This document shows, piece by piece, positions 8,391 to 25,295 of a stretch of DNA of 64,000 nucleotides. The notes beneath the pieces are model-generated. The model was not told the origin of the DNA and ran no database searches. It saw nothing but the letters and a program-made list of their open reading frames with translations. The stretch is from Brevibacterium sp. XM4083 (lineage in GTDB: Bacteria > Actinomycetota > Actinomycetes > Actinomycetales > Brevibacteriaceae). Positions within the stretch are counted from its first letter, which is position 1. Each line of letters begins with the position of its first letter. Position numbers and translations under genes: made by a program. The stretch lies in assembly GCF_006489205.2 (NCBI RefSeq), contig NZ_VFYR02000001.1:484563-548562 (forward strand), written 5' to 3'.

Positions 8391-8483
8391 GTTGCTGTTA
8401 CGTTGTGGATTACAGTGTGACCGAGGCGACACCGACTGTCAATGGCGCAGTCGTCAGCGCAGCAGACGAGGAGGGGCACGCCG

Positions 8484-9233
8484 ATGCCGGCCAAAGGATC
8501 GAACTCTGTGACGAAGACGTTCGAGATGCTCGAACTACTCGGCGATTACTCCGACGGGATCAGTGCTGCGCGGGCCGCGGAGATCACGGGTTATCCGTTC
8601 AGCACCGCCTATCGACTTCTCGGGGGCCTCGTCGAATCCGGATACGCGTCGTTCGATGCGCACTCAAAGCTCTACACGCTCGGTATGGAGGTCTTCAGGC
8701 TCAGTCAGAAGGTCGCGCACCGTCGTGGACTCGACGGTGCCACGAAGGACCTTCTCCGCGACCTCACCGGTTCGACGGGCGAATCGAGCATTCTGTCCGT
8801 GCGACGGGGTGATGCGGCACTGACTGTGGTGACCGTCGACGGTCCCCAGTTCCGCACGACGACCGATCCCGGCGATCATTCGCCACTGCACACCTCGTCC
8901 CTGGGGCAGATCATGCTCGCCTACGATTCCGACCGTGATGGGTCCCTCGAGCGACTCGACCTCAGTGCTCGGACCTCGCGATCGATCACCGACCCCGGCG
9001 AACTGCGCCAGCGGCTCGACGAAGTGCGCTCACGCGGTTGGGCCGGGCAATCGGAGGAGAACGACATCGGCATGAACGCTGTTGCCGTCCCCGTCCTCGA
9101 TCTCGACGGACGGCTGCTCGCGGCACTGGCGTTGGCCGCCCCGGTCTTTCGGCGCTCACTCGACGACCTTGTCGGGTTCACACCACAGCTCACGACCACT
9201 GCGGCTGCCATCGCCGCCCGACTCCCGAGGTGA
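8484..9233 (+). CDS. IclR family transcriptional regulator
   Basis: A 249-residue regulator: winged HTH at residues 5-60 (TKTFEMLELLGDYSDGISAARAAEITGYPFSTAYRLLGGL) and an effector domain from about 75 to the end with the IclR pattern SLGQIMLAY and GWAGQSEENDIGMNAVAVPVLD. I chose the ATG at 8484 because GAGGAGGGG lies 6 nt before it; an upstream ATG at 8442 has no ribosome site. Divergent from the transporter-qsuB operon and directly followed by the shikimate dehydrogenase gene, so it most likely controls quinate/shikimate genes. The known Corynebacterium QsuR is, as I recall, LysR-type, so regulator type differs here. Confidence 0.88.
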   Translation: MPAKGSNSVTKTFEMLELLGDYSDGISAARAAEITGYPFSTAYRLLGGLVESGYASFDAHSKLYTLGMEVFRLSQKVAHRRGLDGATKDLLRDLTGSTGESSILSVRRGDAALTVVTVDGPQFRTTTDPGDHSPLHTSSLGQIMLAYDSDRDGSLERLDLSARTSRSITDPGELRQRLDEVRSRGWAGQSEENDIGMNAVAVPVLDLDGRLLAALALAAPVFRRSLDDLVGFTPQLTTTAAAIAARLPR

Positions 9234-9235
9234 CC

Positions 9236-10099
9236 ATGTCCCTGCCTGCCGCAACCCCAGTCCGCTCCCTCCTGCTCGGCCTCATCGGCGACGGCATCAC
9301 CGCGTCGCGGACACCGCGCATGCACGAACTCGAAGGGGCTCGACTGGGGATTCCGACCATCTACCGTGCTATCGACACAGCCCAACCCGCCGTCGCCTCG
9401 GCGTCTCTCGAGGATCTCCTCACCGCGGCGATCCGCCTCGGATTCGACGGGCTCAACATCACCCACCCGTTCAAACAGGAGGTGATCAGTCTTCTCGATG
9501 AGGTGTCCGATGAGGCGCGGAGGATCGGGTCGGTCAACACCGTCGTCATCGACCGCGACCGTCGCACCCACGGCCACAACACCGATGTGACCGGTTTCGC
9601 CCGCGGATTCGATGCGGGCCTGGCGGGAGCCGACCGAAGGTGCGTCGTGCAGATCGGGGCCGGTGGTGCCGGGAGGGCGGTCGCCTTCGCGCTGGCAGCG
9701 GCGGGAGTCGGCGAACTCGTCATCGCCGATGTCAGCGAGGAGCGGGCGCGGGCTCTGGCCGCGGACATCGGCGACGCTGTGCGGGTCGTCGCCCTCGGTG
9801 AGATCGGGCCCGCTCTGTCGGACGCTGACGGACTGGTCAACGCCACCCCGGTGGGAATGCGAGCCCACCCAGGCAGTCCAGTGGACGCGGCACTGCTGCG
9901 GCCGGAGCTGTGGGTCGCCGATGTCGTCTACCTCCCGTTGGAGACTCAGCTCCTGAGGGACGCCCGGGCGATCGGCTGCCGCACTCTCGACGGGTCGGGC
10001 ATGGCGGTGAATCAGGCTGTCGACGCCTTCGCACTGTTCAGCGGCACGACCGCAGACCCGCAGCGAATGCGGGAGACGTTCCTCAGCCTCGGGCCGTGA
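9236..10099 (+). CDS. qsuD: Shikimate/quinate dehydrogenase, AroE family, NAD-type
   Basis: A 287-residue AroE-fold enzyme that oxidises shikimate to 3-dehydroshikimate and/or quinate to 3-dehydroquinate. The catalytic pair is Lys80 (NITHPFKQ) and Asp117 (GHNTDVTGF). The nucleotide site is GAGGAGRA at 141-148, followed at the end of the second strand by Asp165 (IADVSEER); an acidic residue there favours NAD, whereas biosynthetic AroE has the NADP-binding NRT. The substrate loop reads ITASRTP, not the SxS of biosynthetic AroE. These points and the qsu context make it the catabolic enzyme. It begins 2 bp after the iclR stop, with GAGG 5 nt upstream. No dehydroquinate dehydratase is in the cluster. 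Confidence 0.88.
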   Translation: MSLPAATPVRSLLLGLIGDGITASRTPRMHELEGARLGIPTIYRAIDTAQPAVASASLEDLLTAAIRLGFDGLNITHPFKQEVISLLDEVSDEARRIGSVNTVVIDRDRRTHGHNTDVTGFARGFDAGLAGADRRCVVQIGAGGAGRAVAFALAAAGVGELVIADVSEERARALAADIGDAVRVVALGEIGPALSDADGLVNATPVGMRAHPGSPVDAALLRPELWVADVVYLPLETQLLRDARAIGCRTLDGSGMAVNQAVDAFALFSGTTADPQRMRETFLSLGP

Positions 10100-10105
10100 G
10101 CCGGC

Positions 10106-10933
10106 TCAGTCCTGCGACTTCGCCTTGCGGTTCTCCTTGATGACGGCGAAGACGAAGATGCCGGCGATGAGCGCCAAGGTCACCCACAGTGAGTACTTGT
10201 CGATGACGGAGAGCACGGAGACGGCCGCCTCGCCGAGCTGATAGCCGAGGATCGTCCAGATGAGCGTGAAGATCAGGCACCCGAGGAAGTCGGCGATGAG
10301 GAACAGCGACAGCCGCATCCTCGTCCATCCGGCGACGATGTAGACGAGGGTGCCCGGCACGCCGGGGCAGCGGGCGATCATCGTCATGAGGAAGAGCGCC
10401 CAACTGGGAATCGAGCGCAGGCGCTCGATGCGGGCCAGCTGGCGATCGTTCTGTGCGAAGAGACGGAGCACGCCGTCGGCCCACCGACGACCGGCGAGCC
10501 AGAACGCCCAGTTGAACTTCACCATCCCGACGAACCCGGCGACGATGACGAGCCACAGCGGGATCTCCCCGACGGCGGCATAGGCTCCGGCGGCGACGAT
10601 CGCAGTCTTCGCGCCGTTGATGAACTCCTGGAGAACGGGTGCGTTGACGAGCATCCACGGCCGCAGCGGCAGCAGAGCGAGGTAGATGACGGGCACGCCG
10701 ATGATGATGAAGAGGAGGATCTTGTCGAGCGGCTTGGCCTTGCCCTGCCACGGTGTGATCGCCGCCCACGGGTTCTCCTTGCGGGCGTCCTCAGCGTCCG
10801 GGGCCTGCGCCTCAGAAGTCCGTGCCTCCGACTCCTGCGTCTCGGATTCGGGAGTCGCCGCTGCCTGGGACCCTGCGGCGGGGTCGGGATCCGGTCGGGC
10901 GAGTTCGTCGTCGGGACGGCGTTCTTCGCTGAT
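10106..10933 (-). CDS. DedA family membrane protein, apparent ATC start
   Basis: The core (LLPLRPWMLV, the VRRxxGx-like LAGRRWADG loop, ARCPGVPGTLVYIVAGWTRM and the C-terminal IWTILGYQLG) matches DedA/SNARE-associated membrane proteins, which move lipids such as undecaprenyl phosphate. The open frame continues 79 codons upstream of the first GTG (10696) through a Pro/Glu/Asp-rich hydrophilic segment and the first membrane helix (KILLFIIIGVPVIYLALLPL). Starting at 10696 would cut that helix in half. In this stretch there is no ATG, GTG, TTG or CTG codon, but an ATC codon at 10931-10933 sits 5 nt after AGGAG (10939-10943) and would give a 275-residue protein starting MSEERRP. The ATC may be a rare AUC start or a base error for ATG. 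Convergent with aroE. Confidence 0.75.
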   Translation of the reverse strand: MSEERRPDDELARPDPDPAAGSQAAATPESETQESEARTSEAQAPDAEDARKENPWAAITPWQGKAKPLDKILLFIIIGVPVIYLALLPLRPWMLVNAPVLQEFINGAKTAIVAAGAYAAVGEIPLWLVIVAGFVGMVKFNWAFWLAGRRWADGVLRLFAQNDRQLARIERLRSIPSWALFLMTMIARCPGVPGTLVYIVAGWTRMRLSLFLIADFLGCLIFTLIWTILGYQLGEAAVSVLSVIDKYSLWVTLALIAGIFVFAVIKENRKAKSQD

Positions 10934-11098
10934 GGGGACTCCTCGGTGAGGCTCGATTCGGGGCGTTCTCAGTATCGCACGCCCGTCAGCTGCGCGCCTA
11001 AGGCCTGCGCGCCTGAGACGATGAACTCGGGCTGACTAAGAAGACTCTCATTGCCGATCGCTCGACAAAGCGCGTGCGCCTTCGGCAGGGTTGATGGT

Positions 11099-11581
11099 GT
11101 GGGGAAGCAATCGAGTGTGCTCAGCGCGGTCGTCACCGGACTCGTCGTCGTCCTGGCCGGTCTCGCGTTCATCATCGTGCGCAGCACCGGCCAGTCCGAG
11201 ACCCCCGACCTCACCCCGATCCAGGTCTCGCCGAACTCTGCGGAGTCTGCTTCTCCCGGTGGTGCGGCAGCAGCCGAAGGCGACCCGGACACCTCCGCCG
11301 ATGACGGCACTGGATCCCGCGGAGGCGCCGACAACGGTGGGAGCACCGCAGCCGGTGGCGACAATGCCGACCGCAGCGGCGCCGACGGCGGGGGCGGCAG
11401 TTCGGGCAGCAGCGGCACCGGCAGCGGCTCCGGACAGATCGAGCATTCGTACGAACCCGCTCCCAACCCGCCGCGCGAAGTCCCCGCAGACGGCGACGAC
11501 GACGATGACGACGCCGGCGACGATGACGACGATGATGACGACGATGATGACGATGACGGCGGTGACGATGACGACGACTGA
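11099..11581 (+). CDS. Single-pass membrane protein with Gly/Ser-rich region and poly-aspartate tail
   Basis: A 160-residue protein of unknown function. After a short basic N-terminus, residues 6-30 (SVLSAVVTGLVVVLAGLAFIIV) form one membrane helix followed by Arg. The rest is disordered: Ser/Ala/Gly/Asp-rich to residue 115, GQIEHSYEP, a Pro turn, then about 30 residues that are almost only Asp with a few Gly and Ala. The likely topology puts this acidic tail outside, where it could bind Ca2+ or Mg2+ or contact the wall; that is inference. I chose the GTG at 11099 (AGGG eight bases upstream). The 3' end overlaps the sensor kinase gene, so it is probably co-transcribed and translationally coupled with the two-component system. 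Confidence 0.6.
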   Translation: MGKQSSVLSAVVTGLVVVLAGLAFIIVRSTGQSETPDLTPIQVSPNSAESASPGGAAAAEGDPDTSADDGTGSRGGADNGGSTAAGGDNADRSGADGGGGSSGSSGTGSGSGQIEHSYEPAPNPPREVPADGDDDDDDAGDDDDDDDDDDDDDGGDDDDD

Positions 11582-13010
11582 TCGTCGCATCCGACTCACC
11601 GTCGAGAACCGACTGACGATCGCCGTCTCCGTCCTCTCCGTCCTCGCCCTGACGATCGTCGGCGTGGTGCTCTACTCCGTCGAGTCGAACAACGTCTCGA
11701 ACCGGATCTCCGGGTCGATGAATCAGGAAGTCGCGGAGATGCGGTCGTTTGCGAAGACCGGCGTCGACCCCGAGACCGGTCAGCCGTTCACCTCGGTGGA
11801 CCAGATGCTCAGCCAGTTCCTCGCCCAGAACCAGCCGGACTCCTACGAATCGCTCTTCGCCTACCTCAGCGACGGTCGCGTCCTCTACCAGGGCGAACCG
11901 GACACCCTCCTCGGCGGCTCTCAGGCTCTCGAGGACGCGGTGGCACGCGTTGCGGCCGACGGTGGGGAGATCGAACTGCAGCTCGAGGGCAATGACTACG
12001 AAGGCTACGTCCTCCCCGTCTCAGCGGTCGCCTCGGCGAACGACGCAGCAGGTGCCACGCCGCCGCCGACGAGCGAACACGGCTCCTTCGTCGTCGTCCA
12101 CAACGTCACCGCCAGCCGCGCCGACCTCATCCAGTTCATGCAGATCTACGTCATCGTCGCGCTGCTGGCCGCCCTCATCATCTCCGGGATCTCCTCCGTG
12201 CTCGCCCGCCGCCTCCTCTCACCGGTGACCCAGCTGCGTCAGACCGCACAGTCGATCTCCGGCGGCGACCTGAGCAACCGGCTCGAGACGCGCGGCAGCG
12301 ACGACATCGCCGAACTCGGACGCACCTTCAACGCGATGCTCGATCGGCTCGAATCCGCCTTCGAGACCCAGCGCCGCTTCCTCGACGACGTCGGCCACGA
12401 ACTGCGCACCCCGCTGACGATCCTCAGCGGGCACCTCGAGACGATGAACTCCGAGGACGTCGCCGATGTCGACGAGACCCGTGCGCTCCTGCTCGATGAG
12501 ACCGACAGGATGACGCGCCTCGTCGAGGAGCTCCTCGTCCTCGCCCGGTCACGCCGTCCCGACTTCGTCCGCCCCGAATCCGTCGACGTCTCCGCGCTCC
12601 TCCACGGGGTGCTCGCGAAGGCGACCGGGCTCGGACCCCGGAACTGGCAGGTCGAGATCACCGACCTCCCGGTCCTCACCGCCGACCGCCAGCGCCTGAC
12701 CCAGGCGCTCCTCCAACTCGCCGCGAACGCCGTCGACCACACCGAGACCGGCCAGACGATCACGTTCGGTGCCTCCGAGGACGCCACCGCCGTCCACCTC
12801 TGGGTCCGCGACGACGGTGAGGGCGTGCCCGCCGAGATCGCCGACGAGATCTTCGACCGCTTCAACCGCGGCACCTCCGACGGCGACGGGTTCGGGCTCG
12901 GTCTCTCCATCGTCGAGGCGATAGCCCGCGCCCACGGTGGGACCGTCACCCTCGACCCCACCGAGGTGGGAGCCCAATTCCGTCTCACCCTGCCGAAAGG
13001 ACGCCAGTGA
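11568..13010 (+). CDS. Sensor histidine kinase (HAMP-HisKA-HATPase)
   Basis: A 480-residue kinase. TM1 is at about residues 15-38 (LTIAVSVLSVLALTIVGVVLY), an extracytoplasmic sensor region runs to about 185, TM2 at 188-208 (IYVIVALLAALIISGISSVL), then a HAMP domain. The phosphoacceptor is His277 in DDVGHELRTP. The ATPase domain shows an N-box (LAANAVDHT), G1 (DDGEGVP) and G2 (GFGLGLSIV). The ATG at 11568 lies inside the poly-Asp gene, 14 bp before its stop; an in-frame ATG at 11553 is the alternative. Gene order is kinase then regulator, with a 4-bp overlap. The signal is unknown; the co-transcribed acidic protein and the glycan genes downstream suggest cell-envelope or divalent-cation sensing. 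Confidence 0.88.
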   Translation: MTTTDRRIRLTVENRLTIAVSVLSVLALTIVGVVLYSVESNNVSNRISGSMNQEVAEMRSFAKTGVDPETGQPFTSVDQMLSQFLAQNQPDSYESLFAYLSDGRVLYQGEPDTLLGGSQALEDAVARVAADGGEIELQLEGNDYEGYVLPVSAVASANDAAGATPPPTSEHGSFVVVHNVTASRADLIQFMQIYVIVALLAALIISGISSVLARRLLSPVTQLRQTAQSISGGDLSNRLETRGSDDIAELGRTFNAMLDRLESAFETQRRFLDDVGHELRTPLTILSGHLETMNSEDVADVDETRALLLDETDRMTRLVEELLVLARSRRPDFVRPESVDVSALLHGVLAKATGLGPRNWQVEITDLPVLTADRQRLTQALLQLAANAVDHTETGQTITFGASEDATAVHLWVRDDGEGVPAEIADEIFDRFNRGTSDGDGFGLGLSIVEAIARAHGGTVTLDPTEVGAQFRLTLPKGRQ

Positions 13011-13666
13011 AGAGAATCCTCGTCGTCGAAGACGAAGCGCGCATCTCCTCCTTCATCGCCAAGGGGCTCGGCGCCGCCGGCTTCAGCACGGAGATCGCCG
13101 CCGACGGTCTCACCGGACGCGACCTCGCGATCACCGGGGACTTCGACCTCCTCGTCCTCGACATCGGCCTGCCCCGACTCGACGGCTTCAGCGTCCTCGA
13201 GCAGCTGCGCGACCAGCGCCCCACGCTGCCCGTCCTCGTCCTCACCGCCCGCGACAACGCCGAGGACACGATCTACGCCCTCGAATCCGGGGCGGTGGAC
13301 TACATGATCAAACCCTTCCGCTTCGGGGAGCTGCTCGCCCGGATCCGGCTGCGCCTCAAGGAGACCGTGCAGGAGGCGCCGACGACCGAGCTCGTGCGCG
13401 GGGACGTGCGCATCGACCTGCTCAGCCGGCAGGTCTGGGTGCGCGAGCGCGTCGTCGACCTCTCCGCCCGCGAACTCTCACTCGCGGAGATCCTGTTGAA
13501 GAACCGCGGCAACGTCCTCTCCCGCGAACAGCTCCTCTCCCATGTGTGGGGTTTCGACTTCGACCCCGGCTCCAACGTCGTCGACGTCTACGTCGGCTAC
13601 CTGCGCAAGAAGCTCGGCTCCGACTTCGTCACCACCGTCCGAGGTTTCGGCTACCGCGTCGACTGA
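13007..13666 (+). CDS. OmpR/PhoB family response regulator
   Basis: A 219-residue regulator. The receiver domain has the acidic pair Glu8/Asp9 (VVEDEARI), phospho-acceptor Asp52 (LVLDIGLP), Thr80 and Lys102 (MIKPF). The C-terminal winged HTH has RQVWVRERVVDLSARELSLAEILLKNRGNVLSREQLLSHVW and ends with the wing FVTTVRGFGYRVD. The GTG start overlaps the kinase stop (GTGA), so both proteins are made in step. It very likely controls its own promoter region or the operon beginning at 13818, where direct repeats of the right spacing occur. Confidence 0.93.
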   Translation: MKRILVVEDEARISSFIAKGLGAAGFSTEIAADGLTGRDLAITGDFDLLVLDIGLPRLDGFSVLEQLRDQRPTLPVLVLTARDNAEDTIYALESGAVDYMIKPFRFGELLARIRLRLKETVQEAPTTELVRGDVRIDLLSRQVWVRERVVDLSARELSLAEILLKNRGNVLSREQLLSHVWGFDFDPGSNVVDVYVGYLRKKLGSDFVTTVRGFGYRVD

Positions 13667-13766
13667 TCGGCACCGCGGCACCACGCCGTACGCCGGAAAC
13701 AAGGCACCTGACCTCAACGTTCGGCCTTTTCAGGCCTCCCACCTCGGCGAACGTTCCTAAGACGGT

Positions 13767-13795
13767 TCTCATCTGCATCTCATCTCGGCCTTAAT
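13767..13795 (+). promoter_or_regulatory. 11-bp-spaced direct repeats, candidate response-regulator site
   Basis: TCTCATC occurs at 13767-13773 and again at 13778-13784, exactly 11 bp apart, with a weaker third half-site (TTAATC) about one turn further. OmpR-family regulators bind tandem half-sites at this spacing. The block lies 33-51 bp before the first glycosyltransferase gene and 100 bp after the response regulator gene. The rest of the 151-bp gap shows nothing else. Confidence 0.4.
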
Positions 13796-13817
13796 CTCGG
13801 CGACGAAGCTGGGAACC

Positions 13818-15047
13818 ATGACAGACAACCTGAGAATCGCGCTCTTCTCCCATGACTCACTGGGACTCGGGCACCTCCGCCGCAATCGCGCGCTCGCCTT
13901 CGCGCTCGCCGCACAGCTGCCCGAGCGCACCGGGCGTCCCGTCAGCGGACTCCTCATCGCCGGCAGTCCGGAGGCCGCCCGCTTCGACCTGCCCACCGGC
14001 TGGGACTGGGTCATCCTCCCCGGCGTCACGCCGGCCCCCGGCGGCTATGCGCCGCGGGCGCTCGCGGCGACGATGGACGGCCTGCGCAGTCTGCGGTCGG
14101 CGGCGATCACCGCCGTCCTCGACCAGCAGCAGCCCGACCTCTTCATCGTCGACCGGCACCCCTTCGGCGTCGACGGGGAGCTCGCCGAGGTGATCGACCA
14201 TGTCCGCGCCCGCGGCACCCGCACCGTGCTCGGCCTCCGCGAGGTCCTCGACACCCCCTCCGTCATCGCCGCCGAGTGGGATCGAGTCGGCGGCCCCGGC
14301 AGCGTCGCCGCGGCCTTCGACGAAGTCTGGGTCTACGGCGACGCGGCCGTCTACGACCCCCGCGCCACCGGGGAGGTCCCCGCCGAACTCGCCGAGATCG
14401 CGACGCTCACCGGCTACCTCGCACTCGCCCGGCAGGAGGCCGCGGCACTCGCCGCACTGCCCGCCGCTGACGAGCCCTTCGTCCTCACCTGCCTCGGCGG
14501 AGGCTCCGACGGGGCGGCGCTCGCCGAACGCGCGATCGCCGCGACCCCGCCGCCCGGGCACACCCACCTCGTCGTCGTCGGTCCGCAGATGGACCTGCCC
14601 GAGGTCGAGCGACTGCGCGACCTCGCCCGCCCGGACACGCAGATCCTCCGGCACACCGCCGACATGCCCGGGCTCATCGCCCGCGCCGCGGCACTCGTGT
14701 GCATGGGCGGCTACAACACGCTCTCGGAGGTCATGGCCACCCGCACCCCCGCGCTCGTCGTCCCCCGGGTCGGCCACCGCGAGGAGCAGCCCCGGCGAGC
14801 CTCGGCGCTCGCCGCCGCCGGAGCCCTCGACACCTGCGGCCTGAGCGAGGCGACGCCGGAGTTCCTCACCTCATGGTTCGCCGGCCGCGCCGGGACGCAG
14901 TCGTCCCGGGACCACATCGACCGCGACGGCCTGCGCACCGTGGCCGCCCTCGCCGCCGAACTCATCGACGCCGCCGACGTGCCCGCCGTCTCCGCGCTCG
15001 CCCACTCCCGTCCGAGGCTGACCGAGGAGGTCCGCTGTGCCGTCTGA
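13818..15047 (+). CDS. MurG-like glycosyltransferase (GT-B fold, GT28 C-domain type)
   Basis: A 409-residue soluble protein with a GT-B fold. The N-terminal domain opens with ALFSHDSLGLGHLRRNRALA, matching the Gly-rich/His loop of MurG-type enzymes. The C-terminal nucleotide-sugar domain has VLTCLGGGSDG, ILRHTADMPGLIARAAALVCMGGYNTLSEVMA and the acceptor-side LVVPRVGHREEQPRRA, the typical GGxNTxxE site for a nucleotide sugar. Sugar and acceptor are unknown. First gene of a five-gene overlapping run that also includes two GT4 enzymes, an ABC exporter and a kinase-like protein. It is not murG itself, since no cell-division genes are near. The ATG follows GGGAA. Confidence 0.82.
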   Translation: MTDNLRIALFSHDSLGLGHLRRNRALAFALAAQLPERTGRPVSGLLIAGSPEAARFDLPTGWDWVILPGVTPAPGGYAPRALAATMDGLRSLRSAAITAVLDQQQPDLFIVDRHPFGVDGELAEVIDHVRARGTRTVLGLREVLDTPSVIAAEWDRVGGPGSVAAAFDEVWVYGDAAVYDPRATGEVPAELAEIATLTGYLALARQEAAALAALPAADEPFVLTCLGGGSDGAALAERAIAATPPPGHTHLVVVGPQMDLPEVERLRDLARPDTQILRHTADMPGLIARAAALVCMGGYNTLSEVMATRTPALVVPRVGHREEQPRRASALAAAGALDTCGLSEATPEFLTSWFAGRAGTQSSRDHIDRDGLRTVAALAAELIDAADVPAVSALAHSRPRLTEEVRCAV

Positions 15048-16371
15048 GACCGCCCTGTCCGTGGCGAGCCCCCGCAGGCGCGTGGGCTACGTCCTCAAGA
15101 TGTACCCCCGCTTCTCCGAGACGTTCATCGTCTCCGAGATCCTCGCCCGCGAGGCCGCCGGAGAGGACATCGTCATCTTCTCGCTGCGTCCCTGCACCGA
15201 TGCGCGCTTCCATCCGGAGCTCGCCCGCGTCAAGGCCCCCGTCATCCACGTCGGACGGTCCTCGAGCGCACGCGGCTTCTGGGAGGTCTGGCAGGAGGCG
15301 ACGACGGTTCCCGACATCGCCGCCGCTGCCGCCGACCACCTCGGCGAGCTCCTCGCCCTCGACCACGACGACGCGGGTCAGGCGCTCACTGTCGCCCGGC
15401 TCGCCCGCGAGCACGGGGTCACGCACCTGCACGCGCACTTCGCCTCGGTGTCGACGACGGTGGCCCGCGCCGCCTCCCAGCTCAGCGGCATCCCGTACTC
15501 GTTCACGACGCACGCGAAGGACATCTTCCACAACAGCGTCGAGGTCTCCGACCTCGCCCGCAAGACCGCGGCCGCCGACCACGTCATCGCGATCAGCGAC
15601 TTCAATCGGGACTATCTCGCCCGGACCCTCGGCCCCGAGCTCGCCGAGCGGATCACCGTCGTGCGCAACGGCCTCGAACTCGACCGCTTCCCGTACCGGC
15701 CGCACCGGGAGCCGGCGGAAGTCCCCGCGCTGCTCGCCGTCGGCCGCCTCGTCGAGAAGAAGGGCTTCGGCCATCTCCTCTCCGCGCTCGCCGTCCTCCG
15801 CGACACGGGGCTGCCGGTCCGGCTCGACCTCGTCGGCACCGGCCCGCTCGAGGCCGACCTCGCCGCTCAGGTGCGCACTCTCGGACTCGACGATGTCGTG
15901 ACCCTGCACGGAGCCCTGACCCAGCAGGAGGTGCGGGAGATGTTCGACACCCACGACGTCCTCGTCGCCCCCTTCGTCGACGGCTCCGACGGCAACGTCG
16001 ACGGGCTGCCGACCGTCCTCCTCGAGGGCATGGCCGCCGGCATCCCGTGTGTGGCCGGCACGGTCACCGCGGTGCCCGAGATCGTCATCGACGGACAGAC
16101 CGGGTGGCTCGTCGACGGGGCCGATCCGACAGCGATCGCCGCCGCCGTCGCCGAGGTGGTCCGGCGGGCCGTCGGCGACCCCGCCTCGCTGACCTCCGTC
16201 ACCGACGCCGCGCGGGCGCGCGTGTGCGCCCTCCACGACTCCCGTGTCCAGGCCGCCGAGCTGGCCGCCCTCATCGGCAGGGCCGAGGTGCCCGTCGCCG
16301 CGGCGTCGGCAGCCAGCAGCGGCGGTGCCCCCGACGGCGACACCCTCGATGCCTGGGAGCGTGCCTCATGA
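15037..16371 (+). CDS. GT4 family glycosyltransferase
   Basis: A 444-residue GT-B glycosyltransferase of the WsaF/ExoL-like GT4 group. N-terminal VGYVLKMYPRFSETFIVSEI is the usual opening for this subfamily (export-linked polysaccharide glycosyltransferases). The C-terminal domain has AVGRLVEKKGFGHLLSAL, VGTGP, VTLHGAL and the EX7E-type catalytic segment DGLPTVLLEGMAAGIPCVAGTV. The GTG start overlaps the previous gene by 11 bp, with GAGGAGG 6 nt upstream. The C-terminal 25 residues are Ala/Ser/Gly-rich. It should transfer a hexose from a nucleotide donor on the cytoplasmic side. Confidence 0.88.
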   Translation: MPSETALSVASPRRRVGYVLKMYPRFSETFIVSEILAREAAGEDIVIFSLRPCTDARFHPELARVKAPVIHVGRSSSARGFWEVWQEATTVPDIAAAAADHLGELLALDHDDAGQALTVARLAREHGVTHLHAHFASVSTTVARAASQLSGIPYSFTTHAKDIFHNSVEVSDLARKTAAADHVIAISDFNRDYLARTLGPELAERITVVRNGLELDRFPYRPHREPAEVPALLAVGRLVEKKGFGHLLSALAVLRDTGLPVRLDLVGTGPLEADLAAQVRTLGLDDVVTLHGALTQQEVREMFDTHDVLVAPFVDGSDGNVDGLPTVLLEGMAAGIPCVAGTVTAVPEIVIDGQTGWLVDGADPTAIAAAVAEVVRRAVGDPASLTSVTDAARARVCALHDSRVQAAELAALIGRAEVPVAAASAASSGGAPDGDTLDAWERAS

Positions 16372-17552
16372 GAATCGCCTACATCCTCCTCGACCCCGGC
16401 ATCGGGATCTTCGGCACGAAGGGCGCGAGCGTCCACGCCCAAGAGGTCATCCGCGCCTTCCGCAGCCTCGGGCACGAGGTCACGGTGTTCTGCACCCGCA
16501 CCGACGACGCGATGCCCGGCGACCTCGCCGACCTCGAGGTCGTCCGCCTCGACCTGCCCCCGGGTCTCGACCGGGGCTGCCGGGAGATCGCGCTGCTGCG
16601 GGTCTCCGACCTGCTCGCCGATCTCGTCGCGACCCGCGGGGGCTTCGACCTCGTCTACGAGCGGTACTCGCTCTTCTCCACCGCGGGTGCCACGATCAGC
16701 GACCGCCTCGGCGTTCCTCTCATCCTCGAGGTCAACGCGCCGCTCATCGAGGAGCAGCGCACCCACCGCGGACTCGTCCACACCGAGCATGCGCAGCGCT
16801 CGACCGCCGCGAGCTTCGGACAGGCCGCGCGGATCGTGTGCGTGAGCGACGCCGTGGCCGGCTGGGTGCGGCGCGACTATCCCGGACTCGCCGAGGTGGT
16901 CGTCGTCCCCAACGGGGTCAACACCGACCGCATCGCGCCCGGGTCCACCGACACCGCCGTCCACGACGCCGACGCAGCCGTCCACGGCACTGCCCCGAAA
17001 AGTTCGGCGCCGGTGCGCATCGGCTTCGTCGGCACCCTCAAACCGTGGCACGGCACCGACCGACTGCTCGCGGCGTGCGCGGACCTCGACGGACCGTTCC
17101 ACCTCGACATCGTCGGGCACGGACCTGAGGCCGAGGCGCTCGCCGCCCAGGCCGAACGCCTCCGCCTGGGAGCCCGCATCACCTTCCACGGTGCGCTCGC
17201 CCCGGCCGACGTGCCCGCCCAGCTGCGGCGCTTCGACATCGCCGTTGCCCCGTATCCGGCCGGCCCGAACTACTTCTCGCCGCTGAAGATCTACGAGTAC
17301 CTCGCCGCCGGGGTGCCCACCGTCGCATCGAGGGTCGGATCGATCCCCGAACTGCTCGCCGGCACGGACGCCGGAATCCTCGTCGCCCCCGACGACATCG
17401 CCGAGCTCACCGCCGCGCTGCAGACCCTCCTGAATGATCCCGCCCGGCGGACGCGGATGGGTCAGGCCGCCCGCGCCGAGGCGATCGCCCGCCATTCCTG
17501 GGAGAGCCGGTGCCGTGACATCCTCGCCCCCGTCCTCGTGGAGACCGCATGA
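16368..17552 (+). CDS. GT4 family glycosyltransferase (second)
   Basis: A 394-residue GT-B enzyme. N-terminus MRIAYILLDPGIGIFGTKGASVHAQEVI has the Gly-rich loop and conserved His of GT4 enzymes; VCVSDAVAGWV and VVPNGVNTDRI mark the domain junction; the donor site is FVGTLKPWHGTDRLL, VGHGPE and SPLKIYEYLAAGVPTVAS, with Glu in the EX7E position. A 25-residue Asp/Ala/Thr insert lies near residue 200. The ATG overlaps the stop of the previous gene (ATGA), and its own end overlaps the exporter the same way. Different in sequence from the preceding GT4, so it probably adds a different sugar. Confidence 0.88.
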   Translation: MRIAYILLDPGIGIFGTKGASVHAQEVIRAFRSLGHEVTVFCTRTDDAMPGDLADLEVVRLDLPPGLDRGCREIALLRVSDLLADLVATRGGFDLVYERYSLFSTAGATISDRLGVPLILEVNAPLIEEQRTHRGLVHTEHAQRSTAASFGQAARIVCVSDAVAGWVRRDYPGLAEVVVVPNGVNTDRIAPGSTDTAVHDADAAVHGTAPKSSAPVRIGFVGTLKPWHGTDRLLAACADLDGPFHLDIVGHGPEAEALAAQAERLRLGARITFHGALAPADVPAQLRRFDIAVAPYPAGPNYFSPLKIYEYLAAGVPTVASRVGSIPELLAGTDAGILVAPDDIAELTAALQTLLNDPARRTRMGQAARAEAIARHSWESRCRDILAPVLVETA

Positions 17553-19474
17553 CGCCGCGAACCGTGCCGAACGCCAGCGCCCTCAAGCGGACGCTGAGCA
17601 TCATCCGCCCCCACCTCGGCCGGCACAAGTGGCTCATCCTCGCCGGATTGGCCGCACTGCTCGCCGACGTCGTCTTCCGCATCCTCGAGCCGTGGCCGAT
17701 CAAGATCGCCGTCGACGCCGTCACCGCCGCCCTCGGCGCTGACATCGCCCCGAGCCTCGGCGTCGGCTCCGGGGTGGCAACGACTCTTGTGGCCGCGGCG
17801 CTCGGTCTCGCCGTCATCGTCGCCGGCCGCGCGGTGACGAACTACGCATCGACGATCTGCTTTGCCCTCGTCGGGGCACGGGTCGCCACACAGCTGCGCT
17901 CCCGGGTCTTCGACCATGTCCAGGCGCTGTCGCTGAAGTACCACTCGAAGGCGTCGATCGGAGACACCTCACAGCGCCTCGTCGGCGACATCGGCCGCCT
18001 CCAGGAGGTCGCCGTGACCGCGGGACTGCCGCTCGTCGGCAATGTCATCACCCTCGCCGTCCTCCTCGTCGTCATGGTCGTCCTCGACCCGGTGCTCTCG
18101 GCCATCGTCCTTGCCACCGCCGTCGTCTACGGTCTGCTCTCCCGGGTCGCGACCCCGAAGATCACCACCGCCTCCCGGTCGACGCGCAAAGGCGAGGGCC
18201 ACCTCGTCGGATCCGCCGCCGAGGCGCTGGGTGCGATCCGCGTCGTCCAGGCCTACGGACTCGAGGGGACGGTGGCCACCGAATTCGCCAACGGCAACGA
18301 ACGCGCGCTCAAGGCCGGGGTGCGCGCCCGCCGGCTGGCCGCGGGGCTCGAACGCTCCACGGACGTCCTCGTCGGCGTCTCGCAGGCCCTCGTCCTCGCG
18401 TTCGGCAGCTACCAGGTGCTGCGCGGAGCAATGACCCCGGGCGATCTCGTCCTCTTCCTCCTCTACCTCAAGATCGCGATGAAGCCGCTGCGCGACATGG
18501 CGAAGTACACGGGCCGCATCGCCCGGGCCACCGCCTCGGGGGAGCGCATCGCCGACCTCCTCGACGAACCCATCGAGATCGACGACCGCCCCGACGCGGT
18601 GACGATGGGACCCGTCGCCGGCGATGTCGTCTTCGACGGCGTGACCTCCCGCGACGGACACGGCCGTCGCCTCTTCGACGACCTCAGCCTGCTCATCCCC
18701 GCAGGGGAGAAGATCGGCATCCTCGGCGCCTCGGGGGCGGGCAAGTCGACGCTGACGAGCTACCTGCTCCGTCTCAGCCAGCCGGACGCCGGGCACATCT
18801 ACCTCGACGGCTACGACACGCGCAATGTCACGCGGGCGTCCCTGCGCGGCAACGTCTCCGTCCTCCTCCAGGAGTCGGTGCTCTTCGCGGTGAGCGTGCG
18901 GGAGAACATCCGCTACGGTCGCCTCGACGCCACCGACGCCGAGGTGGAGGCCGCGGCCCGTGCGGCCCGAGCCGATGAGTTCATCCGGGAGCTGCCCGAG
19001 GGCTATGACACGGTGCTCGGCAACCGCGGGGACACGCTCTCCGGCGGGCAGCGGCAGCGCCTGGCGATCGCGCGTGCTCTCGTCCGGTCTGCCCCGGTCG
19101 TCGTCTTCGATGAGGCGAGCACGGGGCTCGACCCGGCGACCCGGGCGCAGGTGACGGAGGCGCTGTGGGACCTCACCGAGGGGCGCACCGGCATCGTCAT
19201 CACCCATGATGCGGCGATGGTCCGCGGCCTCGACCGGGTGGTCTGGCTCGAGGACGGTCGCATCGTCGAGGACGGCTCACCGGCGGAGCTCGCCGCCGAT
19301 CCTTCGACGCGGGTGGCTGCGTGGCTGCGCGATCAGGCTGAGGAGTCGACACCGGAATGGGGCGCCGAGGCGGACGCCTCCGTTGCGTCGGGCACCGTGA
19401 CCGGGCCGCTGCCGCCCGCTCACCCCGCACCGCCCGAGCACCGTCCGGTCGTGGGAACCGGGGTCCGCCGATGA
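17549..19474 (+). CDS. ABC exporter, fused permease and ATPase (MsbA/multidrug type)
   Basis: A 641-residue half-transporter. Six membrane helices fall in residues 25-310, with the coupling segment SLKYHSKASIGDTSQRLVGDI. The nucleotide-binding domain has Walker A GASGAGKST, Q-loop LLQES, signature LSGGQRQR, Walker B VVVFDEAST and the switch His (ITHDA). The last 50 residues are disordered. It must act as a homodimer. Between two glycosyltransferases and a kinase-like gene, the likely cargo is a lipid-linked or free glycan made by the same operon; a drug is possible but the context argues against it. ATGA overlaps at both ends. Confidence 0.88.
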   Translation: MTPRTVPNASALKRTLSIIRPHLGRHKWLILAGLAALLADVVFRILEPWPIKIAVDAVTAALGADIAPSLGVGSGVATTLVAAALGLAVIVAGRAVTNYASTICFALVGARVATQLRSRVFDHVQALSLKYHSKASIGDTSQRLVGDIGRLQEVAVTAGLPLVGNVITLAVLLVVMVVLDPVLSAIVLATAVVYGLLSRVATPKITTASRSTRKGEGHLVGSAAEALGAIRVVQAYGLEGTVATEFANGNERALKAGVRARRLAAGLERSTDVLVGVSQALVLAFGSYQVLRGAMTPGDLVLFLLYLKIAMKPLRDMAKYTGRIARATASGERIADLLDEPIEIDDRPDAVTMGPVAGDVVFDGVTSRDGHGRRLFDDLSLLIPAGEKIGILGASGAGKSTLTSYLLRLSQPDAGHIYLDGYDTRNVTRASLRGNVSVLLQESVLFAVSVRENIRYGRLDATDAEVEAAARAARADEFIRELPEGYDTVLGNRGDTLSGGQRQRLAIARALVRSAPVVVFDEASTGLDPATRAQVTEALWDLTEGRTGIVITHDAAMVRGLDRVVWLEDGRIVEDGSPAELAADPSTRVAAWLRDQAEESTPEWGAEADASVASGTVTGPLPPAHPAPPEHRPVVGTGVRR

Positions 19475-22008
19475 CCGCGGTCGACGCGGCCTGCGCGGCC
19501 GCTGGTGCCGCGCCGCGGACGGTCCCTGCCGGCGGGGCAACCGCGTTCGTCGGTGCATCCTCCGGCATGGAGATCCCCTTCCTCGACGACCTGCGTGAGG
19601 CGGCGGCGCTCAGTCGACTTCTCGGGTTCGCCGCCCGGCCCGTGCGCCTCCGCGTCAAACCCGGTCGCAGCGCCATCGTCGCCTGGCGGCGCGACGGCGT
19701 GCCCGGTCTCGCCGGATGGGGCTGGACGACGGTGATGAGCGACGCCGACAAACTGGCGAACCTGCGGCGTCGAGCGGAGCGGCGCGGCCAGTCCCTGTAC
19801 GTCCACACCGTCGTCACGGACCCTGCCGCGTCGGCAGTTGACGATGCTGCGCCGGCAGCTCACGACACCGTGTCGGGTCGGGACCGGCCCGCGGGGGCCC
19901 GCGAGTTCACCCTCGTCAGCGGGGGAGTGCTCGCGGATCCGAAGCTCGGGGCATCGCTTGCGCGGGTGCGCGATGATCTCGACCTCGACGCGTGCACCGT
20001 CGTCGGCTACAACCCGGCCAGACGCATCCTCCTCGCACACGCCGGCGAATTCGTGCGGATCGGCACGGACCCCTACGACCGTCTCCTCGCCGCCGCCGAG
20101 GACTGGCAGCGGCACGGGCTGCCCACCCTGCCGGTCACCCGCCTCGGCGCGGATGCGACGGCAGTGCGCTCGCCGTGGTGGGGCACCGGTGACCTCGCCA
20201 CACACCCGGATGCGCAGATCGCCGAGGCGGTCGGCCGCACCATCGCCGCCCTCCACGGCCGCAGCGTCGCTGACTCTCACGACCGGCACGCTGTCGCCGA
20301 CGCCTGCGCGATGCTCGATGACACCGTGCGCACGCTGAGCCGGCTGCTCCCGGACGCAGAGGTCGCACGTGCGCGACGACTCGCCCGCACCATCGCCGCA
20401 GAGCTGAGCTCGACCGACCCGAGTCGGGCTCTGACTGAACTCTCCGACATCCACGGTGACCTCAGCCCCGACCAGATCCTCATCGACGGCGGGGACTTCC
20501 GGATCATCGACCTCGATCGAGCCGGTGTCGGCCCGGTCGGCATGGATCTCGGCCGGTGGATCGCGGCGTGCCGCCTCCGCGGTGACACCGCCGGACCGGG
20601 GCTGGAGATCGGATTCCTCCACGGATACAGCGCCGTCGCGTCGGATGCGGCCGCGGCCTCGGGCGTGGCAGCTCCCATGCCGGCGAGTCCGCCGCGGATC
20701 GACGGTCTCGACGTGTGGGCGGCCTGGGCGCTGCTCCTCACGGCTATCGAGCCCTGGCGCACCTGCCGTCCCGACTGGCGCGAGCGCACCGAACGGCACC
20801 TCGACCTTGCCGAGGAGGCCCTGCGCGATCGCCCCCACCTCACCGCCTGCGGCACTCGGCCCAGCTCCTCACCGATCCCCGCGCGCATCCGCATCGACGG
20901 GACCGATGTCGACATCCGCCGAGCGTGGCCGGCGAAGAAGGGCCGCATCGCCGTCGAGGCGACGACAGCCGACGGCATCCGGGCAGGCTTCCTCGATCCG
21001 ACCCCGCGGGACACACCGCATCCCGGCTCACGGGATACCCCGCACGGCGACACCCGCGAGGCATCGCACGGCGACACCCGCGAACCCTCACCTGTCGACC
21101 CCCGAACGGCCACACAGACCACCGCGGTCGCGACACTGCTGCCGGCCGGCGCCGACCCGGACCTCCCCGGCCTCGCGCGCCTCCTCGACGGTCCGGGCAC
21201 GCGCGGCAACCGGCTCGTCTCCCACCGGCCGGGACGACGCGCCGTCGTCGCTCTCGCCGACGGCACCTTCGCGAAATGCGTGCGCCGTGGCAAGGCAGCG
21301 GCGATCCTCGCCGGGCAGGACAGGGCGCTCGCCTTCGCCGCCGGATTCATCCTGCCCCGGGTGCTCGACGCCGATGACGCGACGGTCCTTCTCGCTCGGG
21401 TCCCCGGGGTCGAACTCCACGAGCCGAGGGCACTCGGCACGCACTGGGAGCGGGCCTGGACGGACTGCCTCGGCGCATGGGACCGCGCGGACGCACAGGC
21501 GCTGCCGGACTCGATGCCCACCCACACCGCTGAAGACGAAGCCGGTGTCCTCGAGGACTGGCGGGAGCGGGCCGATGGTCTGCTCGGCGACCGTGCCGCG
21601 CCCCTCGATGCGCTCCTCGACGAGGTGACCACGCAGCTGCGCGACTCCGCTCCGCCACTGCGCTGGGGCCCGGTGCACCGCGATCTCCACGACAAGCAGC
21701 TGATGTGGGATGAGGCCGCCGGTCCCGGACTCCTCGACGTCGACACGGCCTGCCGCGGTGAGCGCGAACTCGACCTCGGCAACCTGTCCGCCCACGCGAC
21801 GTGGCGGCGCGCTCAGGGAATCTGGTCGCCCGCCGAAGCGGAGGCCGTCACCCGTGCGATCGGCCGGGTCGCCTCGGCGGGAGGCTGCGACCGGTCACGA
21901 CTTCGACTCTACGAACGCGCGAGCCTCCTCCGGCTCGTCTGCGTCTACGCGTTTCGACCGCGATGGGCCGCACGAACGCACGCGCTGCTCGACGCGGCCG
22001 CAGAGTGA
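19471..22008 (+). CDS. Large protein with two aminoglycoside-phosphotransferase-like kinase domains
   Basis: An 845-residue protein with two copies of an APH/choline-kinase-like fold. Copy 1 has a Brenner motif HGDLSPDQ starting at His328 and the metal-binding IIDLDRAG. Copy 2, from about residue 580, has an N-lobe (RRAVVALADGTFAKCVRRGKA), HRDLHDKQ starting at His736 and LLDVDTACRGE. Asp330 and Asp738 are the presumed catalytic bases; the usual Asn of the motif is Gln in both, which still can bind metal in some relatives. The first 130 residues contain a further N-lobe-like stretch (RVKPGRSAIVAW). Such kinases phosphorylate sugars, lipids or small molecules; the substrate is unknown. Last gene of the operon; ATGA start overlap. 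A 200-residue linker holds short DTPHGDTRE-like repeats. Confidence 0.75.
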   Translation: MTAVDAACAAAGAAPRTVPAGGATAFVGASSGMEIPFLDDLREAAALSRLLGFAARPVRLRVKPGRSAIVAWRRDGVPGLAGWGWTTVMSDADKLANLRRRAERRGQSLYVHTVVTDPAASAVDDAAPAAHDTVSGRDRPAGAREFTLVSGGVLADPKLGASLARVRDDLDLDACTVVGYNPARRILLAHAGEFVRIGTDPYDRLLAAAEDWQRHGLPTLPVTRLGADATAVRSPWWGTGDLATHPDAQIAEAVGRTIAALHGRSVADSHDRHAVADACAMLDDTVRTLSRLLPDAEVARARRLARTIAAELSSTDPSRALTELSDIHGDLSPDQILIDGGDFRIIDLDRAGVGPVGMDLGRWIAACRLRGDTAGPGLEIGFLHGYSAVASDAAAASGVAAPMPASPPRIDGLDVWAAWALLLTAIEPWRTCRPDWRERTERHLDLAEEALRDRPHLTACGTRPSSSPIPARIRIDGTDVDIRRAWPAKKGRIAVEATTADGIRAGFLDPTPRDTPHPGSRDTPHGDTREASHGDTREPSPVDPRTATQTTAVATLLPAGADPDLPGLARLLDGPGTRGNRLVSHRPGRRAVVALADGTFAKCVRRGKAAAILAGQDRALAFAAGFILPRVLDADDATVLLARVPGVELHEPRALGTHWERAWTDCLGAWDRADAQALPDSMPTHTAEDEAGVLEDWRERADGLLGDRAAPLDALLDEVTTQLRDSAPPLRWGPVHRDLHDKQLMWDEAAGPGLLDVDTACRGERELDLGNLSAHATWRRAQGIWSPAEAEAVTRAIGRVASAGGCDRSRLRLYERASLLRLVCVYAFRPRWAARTHALLDAAAE

Positions 22009-22045: not shown

Positions 22046-23086
22046 TCAGTCCTGTGTGCTGCGGCGGGCATCGCCCCAGATGTCGACGCCCGAGTCGACG
22101 GCGAAGGAGTCGATCGCGGCAAGCTCGTCATCGGTGAAGGGAGCGGCGCTCAGGGCGGCGACGTTGTTCTCGAGCTGATCGACGCGGCTGGCGCCGATGA
22201 CGAGGGAGGAGACACGGGGGTCGCGCAGCGCCCACGACAGGGCCATCTGCGCGAGCGACTGACCGCGCGCCTCGGCGATGTCGGCCAGTCCGCGGATCCG
22301 GTCGAGGTTGTCCGCGGACAGGAAGCCGTCCTTGAACGACGGGGTCTCCTTCCCGGCGCGCGAATCCGCGGGCACCCCGTCGAGGTACTTGCCGGTGAGC
22401 AGGCCCTGGGCGAGCGGGGAGAAGGCGATGACGCCGAGGCCCTCCTCGGCGGTGGTGTCGAGGAGGTGGTCGTCCTCGATCCAGCGGTTGAGCATCGAGT
22501 ACGAGGGCTGATGGATGAGCAGCGGCGTGCCGAGGTCGCGGGCGATCTGCGCCGCTCGGGCCGTGTCGGCGGCCGAATAGGAGGAGATGCCCGCGTAGAG
22601 GGCGCGACCCGAGCGCACCGCAGTGTCGAGTGCGCCGATCGTCTCCTCGAGCGGGGTCGTGGCATCGGGGCGGTGCGAGTAGAAGATGTCGACGTAATCG
22701 AGGCCGAGGCGACCCAGCGACGCATCGAGGCTCGAGAGCAGGTACTTGCGGCTGCCGCCCGGGCCGCCGTAGGGGCCGGGGTGCATGACCCAGCCGGCCT
22801 TCGTCGAGATGATGAGCTCATCGCGGTAGCGGCCGAGGTCCTCACGCAGCTGGCGACCGAAGTTGATCTCGGCCGACCCGGACGGCGGCCCGTAGTTGTT
22901 CGCGAGGTCGAAGTGCGTGACGCCGAGGTCGAAAGCGCGGCGGACCAGTGCGCGCTGTTCGTTGAACGCGACGTCGTCGCCGAAGTTGTGCCACATCCCC
23001 AGCGACAGGGCCGGCAGCACGAGTCCGGAGCTCCCGACTCGGCGATAGGTCATCGACTCGTAGCGGTCATCGGCAGCGGTGTACAC
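22046..23086 (-). CDS. Aldo/keto reductase, YghZ (AKR14) type
   Basis: A 346-residue NADPH-dependent TIM-barrel oxidoreductase. The catalytic tetrad is recognisable: Asp in HFDLANNYG, Tyr of the same segment, Lys in IISTKAGW and His in DIFYSHRPD. The cofactor loop near the C-terminus (SSLVIGASRVDQLENN) is standard. The length and the SLGMWHNFGDD opening place it with YghZ/L-glyceraldehyde-3-phosphate reductase, which detoxifies small aldehydes. The GTG start has GGGAG 7 nt upstream. Convergent with the kinase gene, with 37 bp between, and 47 bp before the pterin dehydratase gene. Confidence 0.9.
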   Translation of the reverse strand: MYTAADDRYESMTYRRVGSSGLVLPALSLGMWHNFGDDVAFNEQRALVRRAFDLGVTHFDLANNYGPPSGSAEINFGRQLREDLGRYRDELIISTKAGWVMHPGPYGGPGGSRKYLLSSLDASLGRLGLDYVDIFYSHRPDATTPLEETIGALDTAVRSGRALYAGISSYSAADTARAAQIARDLGTPLLIHQPSYSMLNRWIEDDHLLDTTAEEGLGVIAFSPLAQGLLTGKYLDGVPADSRAGKETPSFKDGFLSADNLDRIRGLADIAEARGQSLAQMALSWALRDPRVSSLVIGASRVDQLENNVAALSAAPFTDDELAAIDSFAVDSGVDIWGDARRSTQD

Positions 23087-24557: not shown

Positions 24558-25295
24558 GTGACGAAATTCCACTCGATTCGGGATCAGCTCCTCGATCGCC
24601 TCGACGGCATGGCCGCCGGAGAGCAGTTCCCGCCCGAGCGTCAGCTCGCTCAGCAGCTCGGCATCTCCCGGATGACGCTGCGCCGGGCCCTCGACGACCT
24701 CGTCGCGAAGGGCGTCGTCCGCCGCCGGCATGGGGCCGGCGTCTTCGCGCTCGGCCCGAAGTTCGATCAGCCGCTGGCCGCGAGTTCGTTCACCGAGGAC
24801 ATGCTCGCCCGCGGACTGCATCCCGGCTCCCGGGTGCTCTCCTTCGACCGCGGAGAGGCCGGGGCGCACATCGGACGCAAGCTCCACCTCGGCGAAGGGG
24901 ATGAGGTGCTGACGATCCTCCGCCTGCGACTCGCCGACGATGAGCCGATCGCCCTCGAGGAGCTCCACATTCCCGCCGCGCGCGTGCCCGGACTCGTCGC
25001 CGCCGACCTCGTCGACGCCTCGTTCTACGACCTCCTCCACACCCGCTTCGGCATCGACCTCGCCCACAGCGTGCAGACGATCGAACCGACGCTCCTCGAC
25101 GAGGAGGAAGCCGAGCACCTCGGCGCCCCGATCCAGGCCCCGGCCCTGCTCTTCGAGCGCACCTCGCGCAGCGCCGACGATGTGCCCTTCGAATTCGTCC
25201 GCTCGGTCTACCGCGGCGACCGCTACAAGGTCCGCACCGAACTCACCGTGCCCGTCCGCCCGGAGGGCAGCGCCGTCGAGGGGCCGCGACCATGA
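24558..25295 (+). CDS. GntR family regulator, HutC subfamily (UTRA domain)
   Basis: A 245-residue regulator: winged HTH at residues 5-68 (HSIRDQLLDRLDGM, LAQQLGISRMTLRRALDDLVAKGVVRRRHGAGVF) and a UTRA ligand-binding domain from about 85 (SFTEDMLARGLHPGSRVLSFDR) to the end (SVYRGDRYKVRTELTVP). HutC/NagR-type UTRA domains bind amino sugars or their phosphates, and the downstream genes process anhydroMurNAc and MurNAc-6-phosphate, so the effector is probably MurNAc-6P or GlcNAc-6P. GTG start; the GGGGGA abuts it too closely for a normal ribosome site. The stop overlaps anmK by 4 bp. Confidence 0.9.
   Translation: MTKFHSIRDQLLDRLDGMAAGEQFPPERQLAQQLGISRMTLRRALDDLVAKGVVRRRHGAGVFALGPKFDQPLAASSFTEDMLARGLHPGSRVLSFDRGEAGAHIGRKLHLGEGDEVLTILRLRLADDEPIALEELHIPAARVPGLVAADLVDASFYDLLHTRFGIDLAHSVQTIEPTLLDEEEAEHLGAPIQAPALLFERTSRSADDVPFEFVRSVYRGDRYKVRTELTVPVRPEGSAVEGPRP

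Follow-up and report, generated by a model that had tools for sequence, protein, structure and literature searches.

Eight genes lie on the forward strand of the window, by which is meant the whole 64,000-nucleotide stretch of DNA from Brevibacterium sp. XM4083 that was analyzed (Table 1). The first three, referred to here as the upstream operon, encode a membrane protein rich in aspartate (the poly-Asp protein), a sensor histidine kinase (HK), and a response regulator (RR). The remaining five, referred to as the cassette, encode three glycosyltransferases (GTs), an ABC exporter, and a protein with two kinase domains (the twin kinase). Neighboring genes overlap by 14 and 4 bp in the upstream operon and by 11, 4, 4, and 4 bp in the cassette. 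When the coordinates were rechecked, the gene order, gene sizes, 4- to 11-bp overlaps, 151-bp gap, and direct repeats were all as originally predicted. Pfam domains were confirmed for the HK, the RR, the GTs, and the exporter, and a sequence scan found a convincing transmembrane segment in none of the GTs and kinases. The next gene after the twin kinase encodes an aldo-keto reductase (22046-23086) and is convergent, so the operon ends with the twin kinase. On the other side, divergent from the upstream operon, is a multipass membrane protein gene, of the DedA/VTT type by eye (about 10108-10937, minus strand). Farther out are an IclR regulator followed by a shikimate/quinate dehydrogenase (8442-10099, upstream) and a GntR-UTRA regulator with AnmK (24558-26479, downstream).

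Table 1. Features of the upstream operon and the cassette (positions in the window).
Feature	Position	Strand	Basis or remark
Putative regulator site CTAAGAAGACTCTCATT before the upstream operon	11036..11052	+	Form CTAAGA-N4-TCTCATT
Poly-Asp membrane protein, 160 aa	11099-11581	+	Translation; no Pfam or NCBIfam match
Sensor histidine kinase (HK)	11568-13010	+	Pfam/NCBIfam domains
OmpR/PhoB-family response regulator (RR)	13007-13666	+	Pfam/NCBIfam
Gap of 151 bp between the RR and first GT genes	13667-13817		
Cassette promoter element CTAAGA-N4-TCTCATC-N4-TCTCATC-N5-CTTAATC	13757..13796	+	Repeat period of about 11 bp
GT-B glycosyltransferase, annotated family 28 (GT28-like)	13818-15047	+	Predicted fold nearest GT1
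GT4 glycosyltransferase a (GT4a), EpsE/WcaL-like	15037-16371	+	Pfam/NCBIfam
GT4 glycosyltransferase b (GT4b)	16368-17552	+	Pfam/NCBIfam
ABCB-type (MsbA-like) half-transporter, TMD fused to NBD	17549-19474	+	
Twin kinase, 845 aa	19471-22008	+	Motifs and predicted structure

The poly-Asp protein has a single transmembrane segment, carries 25 aspartates among its last 40 residues, and has a conserved SYEP.PNPPRE(V/I)P motif ahead of this acidic tail. It was seen in Brevibacterium loci only, and no such protein was recognized in three stretches inspected next to distant two-component pairs or cassettes. The other two products of the upstream operon form a two-component system of the OmpR family. 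The HK contains two transmembrane segments, a HAMP domain, a HisKA domain (HELRTP at residue 277), and an HATPase domain, while the RR joins a receiver to a winged helix, all of them above the Pfam cut-offs. They fall short of the models for the heavy-metal system CztS/CztR, which scored 197.3 and 197.7 bits against cut-offs of 292.55 and 279.2. At one Brevibacterium locus (G461:C1:3528199-3529696) the HK ortholog is split into two frames and may be broken; the cassette genes there are intact.

Does this two-component system act on the genes next to it? The 151-bp gap contains direct repeats, TCTCATC-TGCA-TCTCATC (13767-13784), followed by a TCGGC spacer and CTTAATC (13790-13796). The sequence TTCTCATCNNNNTCTYATC has a single mismatch-free occurrence in the 4.03-Mb genome, and the element is kept in five Brevibacterium loci; the core TAAGAAGACTCTCAT of the site before the upstream operon is likewise invariant across five loci. 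The common pattern, YTAAGANNNNTCTCATY (YTAAGA-N4-TCTCATY), has exactly two sites in the genome, one at the promoter of the upstream operon and one at that of the cassette, a count that is descriptive and partly circular since the pattern was drawn from these same two sites. A copy with one mismatch, at the start codon of an amine-oxidase-like gene, was left out of it. The spread of the pattern over genomes is stronger evidence. Among 57 Brevibacterium genomes, it is present in 28 of the 30 with an HK ortholog versus 2 of the 27 without (Fisher P of about 1e-11, relatedness ignored), and in 23 genomes it stands at both promoters of the locus. More distant actinobacterial cassettes often have a related ATGAGA-N4-TCTCA(T/C) element upstream. 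Judging from these sites, the adjacent two-component system probably controls the cassette. An additional copy is found in six Brevibacterium genomes beside a lipoprotein gene adjoined by a VOC-like gene; the lipoprotein resembles PepSY proteins, a family assigned by eye.

Within Brevibacterium, the cassette is inherited in an all-or-none fashion. Among the 57 genomes, 37 have the GT28-like gene, 34 the exporter (at a strict cut-off), and 30 the HK ortholog, the last being found in 30 of the 37 cassette-bearing genomes and in none of the 20 cassette-free ones. In 36 of the 37 genomes common to both searches, the GT28-like gene and the twin kinase are either both present (23) or both absent (13); the remaining genome has a weak kinase match alone. 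The two-component system is not obligate, and this regulation not universal, since an HK ortholog is missing from seven Brevibacterium genomes whose cassette is divergent. How is the unit lost? One cassette-free genome, L099, retains the flanking genes for the DedA/VTT-like membrane protein and the aldo-keto reductase, and between about positions 2620 and 2860 the promoter site of the poly-Asp gene runs directly into what is left of the final twin kinase codons. This genome, which is one of the two that have the site without the HK, appears to have lost all eight genes as one block. Co-occurrence and synteny together argue that the genes form a unit and are not neighbors by chance.

The unit is not confined to Brevibacterium. 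A gene neighborhood check across actinobacteria, covering 395 genomes of the class, found the first gene in 20, and the five genes do co-occur, with the complete order GT28-like, GT4a, GT4b, ABC, kinase, kinase in 14 of these 20 further loci and part of it in others. Brevibacterium and Tessaracoccus have this order in common; the more distant loci either run GT28, ABC, GT4, GT4 or show just some of the genes. The two kinases, both with the aminoglycoside phosphotransferase (APH) fold, are fused or split depending on the locus. Beyond the phylum, a plasmid search with the GT28-like protein as the query recovered further clusters; the same search with the twin kinase itself gave no match. On a Paracoccus aestuarii plasmid, the cassette has fused kinases, and a divergently oriented HK-RR pair accompanies it. 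In E. coli, the kinases are split and are followed by an alginate-export-type (AlgE-type) outer membrane channel and a UDP-glucose dehydrogenase-type gene. The E. coli version was found in 18 of 5,426 complete genomes and was plasmid borne every time, and its identity of at least 99% suggests recent spread. At two of these loci (L035 and L039) the plasmid is a large conjugative IncF plasmid, and in L039 fimbrial and S6-peptidase genes also adjoin. A UDP-glucose/nucleotide-sugar dehydrogenase gene follows the cassette in three actinobacterial loci as well as in E. coli, hinting at glucuronate; no other common partner emerged from the ten genes flanking distant cassettes. The Brevibacterium genome of the window has three members of this dehydrogenase family, located elsewhere than the cassette. 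Protein distances among cassette members correlate at 0.70 to 0.94, which shared ancestry alone may explain.

What might the cassette make? The first GT had been called MurG-like, a misleading label, since the resemblance is limited to the C-terminal Pfam domain. The MurG equivalog model (TIGR01133) scored 28.1 bits against a cut-off of 250.25, and then over the C-terminal part only. The predicted structure (pLDDT 79) is a GT-B fold closest to GT1 enzymes of antibiotic and natural product pathways, of the GtfD, OleD, and CalG1 types. MurG ranked lower in the structural search with this model and was absent among the 50 structures listed in a second comparison, though the two may still be related. 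The exporter is of the ABCB type (PF00664, 149.6 bits; PF00005, 109.9 bits), with the Walker A motif GASGAGKST and the LSGGQ signature intact. Its best NCBIfam matches are MsbA-related and glucan exporter models, all under the curated cut-offs; the MsbA lipid A exporter equivalog itself (TIGR02203) reached 335.8 bits against a cut-off of 602. Searches of the eight genes with Pfam and NCBIfam found no initiating transferase, polymerase, or synthase, nor did they place the locus among Wzx/Wzy, ABC-capsule, or synthase systems, and within the unit there is no gene for an initiating phosphoglycosyltransferase, a ligase, a lipid carrier, or a nucleotide sugar. The missing initiating transferase, polymerase, and ligase argue for a short product. 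They also mean that, while one co-inherited unit for glycan assembly and export with kinases stands as predicted, the "complete pathway" originally proposed is not yet borne out.

The twin kinase of the window fell into no usable Pfam or NCBIfam family, and a phmmer search of PDB sequences returned no significant match. Its Paracoccus and E. coli counterparts, on the other hand, match the APH family PF01636 (1.8e-30 and 9.9e-15), and its predicted structure (mean pLDDT 82) consists of two APH-like kinase domains, one at residues 160 to 459 (Z of about 19 to 8zic/2pup) and one at residues 568 to 845 (Z of about 19 to 3w0m). Both halves have the bilobal fold, HxD loop, and metal-binding D of the APH-like kinase superfamily. 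The catalytic motifs are HGDLSPDQ (residue 328) and IIDLD (345) in the N half and HRDLHDKQ (736) and LLDVD (754) in the C half. They are kept in both domains in all 22 listed loci, the N-half loop as HGD.S.DQ and the C-half loop as an H(R/G)D type ending in Q, with a D-x-D motif after each.

Can a substrate be named? In structural comparisons, the N half aligns with methylthioribose, choline, 4-hydroxytryptamine, and glucosamine kinases, and the C half with APH(4)-Ia and APH(3'')-Id (21 to 22% identity to the latter). The choline, methylthioribose, 4-hydroxytryptamine, glucosamine, and aminoglycoside kinases tie (Z within 1), so the fold forbids a substrate call. The prediction of a phosphorylated product draws on the two kinase domains with intact motifs, which may act on a precursor sugar just as well as on the glycan itself.

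How does the cassette compare with known systems? Aminoglycoside phosphotransferases usually have an N in the catalytic loop. The C half shares their fold and HxD catalytic loop, but the cassette kinases have Q at that N position and no known aminoglycoside context. The N half resembles the APH-like SjGlcNK glucosamine kinase/maltokinase family (Z 18.3 over 285 residues to 6hwl), in which a kinase paralogue sits in an operon devoted to activating and transferring sugars (PMC6520443). The cassette differs from that family in having two kinase domains, which are consistently accompanied by three GTs and an exporter, and in lacking the published actinobacterial glucosamine kinase signature, Q-x2-RE-x2-YA-x3-LP-x-W (PMC6520443), which was found in 0 of 49 sequences checked; the D-x-H of the glucosamine kinase catalytic loop is present in the C half only.

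ABC exporters of the MsbA, PglK, and NdvA types carry lipid-linked or cyclic glycans. Like those systems, the cassette has a TMD-NBD half-transporter adjoining GTs, but it lacks genes for lipid A, N-glycan, or cyclic glucan synthesis and has two kinases. Alphaproteobacterial GT28-GT4 clusters (Azospirillum, Sulfitobacter, Rhizobium, and Sinorhizobium meliloti pSymB) have homologous first GTs in the same order. Unlike in the cassette, no kinases were seen in these clusters; in their place, those of Azospirillum and Sulfitobacter have an additional GT along with a histidine phosphatase and a deacetylase, and a family-5 peptide-type ABC importer lies nearby. Open-license literature yielded no described pathway for the cassette or its E. 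coli version, no match among Brevibacterium exopolysaccharide clusters, and no report of the regulator motif, in keeping with the original view that no named pathway has this set.

Taken together, we lean toward reading the locus as a two-component-controlled cassette that assembles, phosphorylates (as the glycan or its precursor), and exports a short glycan or glycolipid. The sensor kinase, with its poly-Asp membrane partner, would read an envelope or ionic signal. The OmpR-type regulator, judging from site conservation, would then bind TAAGA-N4-TCTCATC before its own operon and before the cassette and turn both on. The three soluble GTs may attach about three sugars (in some hosts probably including a glucuronate) to an acceptor, most likely one bound to the membrane. 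The two kinase domains would phosphorylate the glycan or a sugar used for it, and the exporter, as its family suggests, would carry the product over the cytoplasmic membrane. A bolder version, offered tentatively and as the less probable of the two, is that of an undescribed pathway, spread horizontally across phyla, whose secreted product is a phosphorylated oligosaccharide: a trisaccharide, lipid linked or soluble, that the twin kinase phosphorylates doubly before ABC export, all under a dedicated two-component system.

Could the product instead be a glycosylated secondary metabolite? Aminoglycoside producers are known to mask their product with phosphate inside the cell and then export it. 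By analogy, the product of the GTs, whether a pseudo-oligosaccharide or a decorated small molecule, would be held inactive in the cell by the APH-like kinases and removed by the exporter. The likeness of the first GT to antibiotic GTs and of the kinase C half to APH(4)-Ia and APH(3'')-Id is what one would look for, but the unit has no aglycone or sugar-tailoring genes, and the same content recurs on the E. coli and Paracoccus plasmids, where the E. coli AlgE-type channel and UDP-glucose dehydrogenase-type gene better fit an envelope or secreted glycan; we regard this explanation as unlikely. It is just as doubtful that the cassette decorates the envelope or a wall polymer, with the MsbA-like pump flipping a lipid-linked trisaccharide that then stays in the membrane or wall, and with the kinases acting on a precursor sugar. 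The MsbA-related and glucan exporter matches, a control system of the envelope-sensing type, and the regulator site at the PepSY-resembling lipoprotein gene in six genomes are consistent with such a role; the E. coli channel suggests release over retention, however, and an acyl- or lipid-processing gene is absent from the unit. That separate small operons adjoin by accident is very improbable, for although the two-component system is partly a lineage add-on, with no ortholog in the seven divergent cassette genomes, the all-or-none presence, cross-phylum order, shared site, and whole-unit deletion contradict it.

Overall, a two-component-controlled cassette for a short exported glycan or glycolipid would add two kinase families to glycan biology. 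The gene set is kept in a fixed order in Actinomycetota and on plasmids of Alpha- and Gammaproteobacteria alike, which predicts a shared extracellular product, apparently one not yet described. The locus also offers a genetic handle for finding that product: one regulator (the cassette's own in Brevibacterium), one promoter element, and one deletable block.
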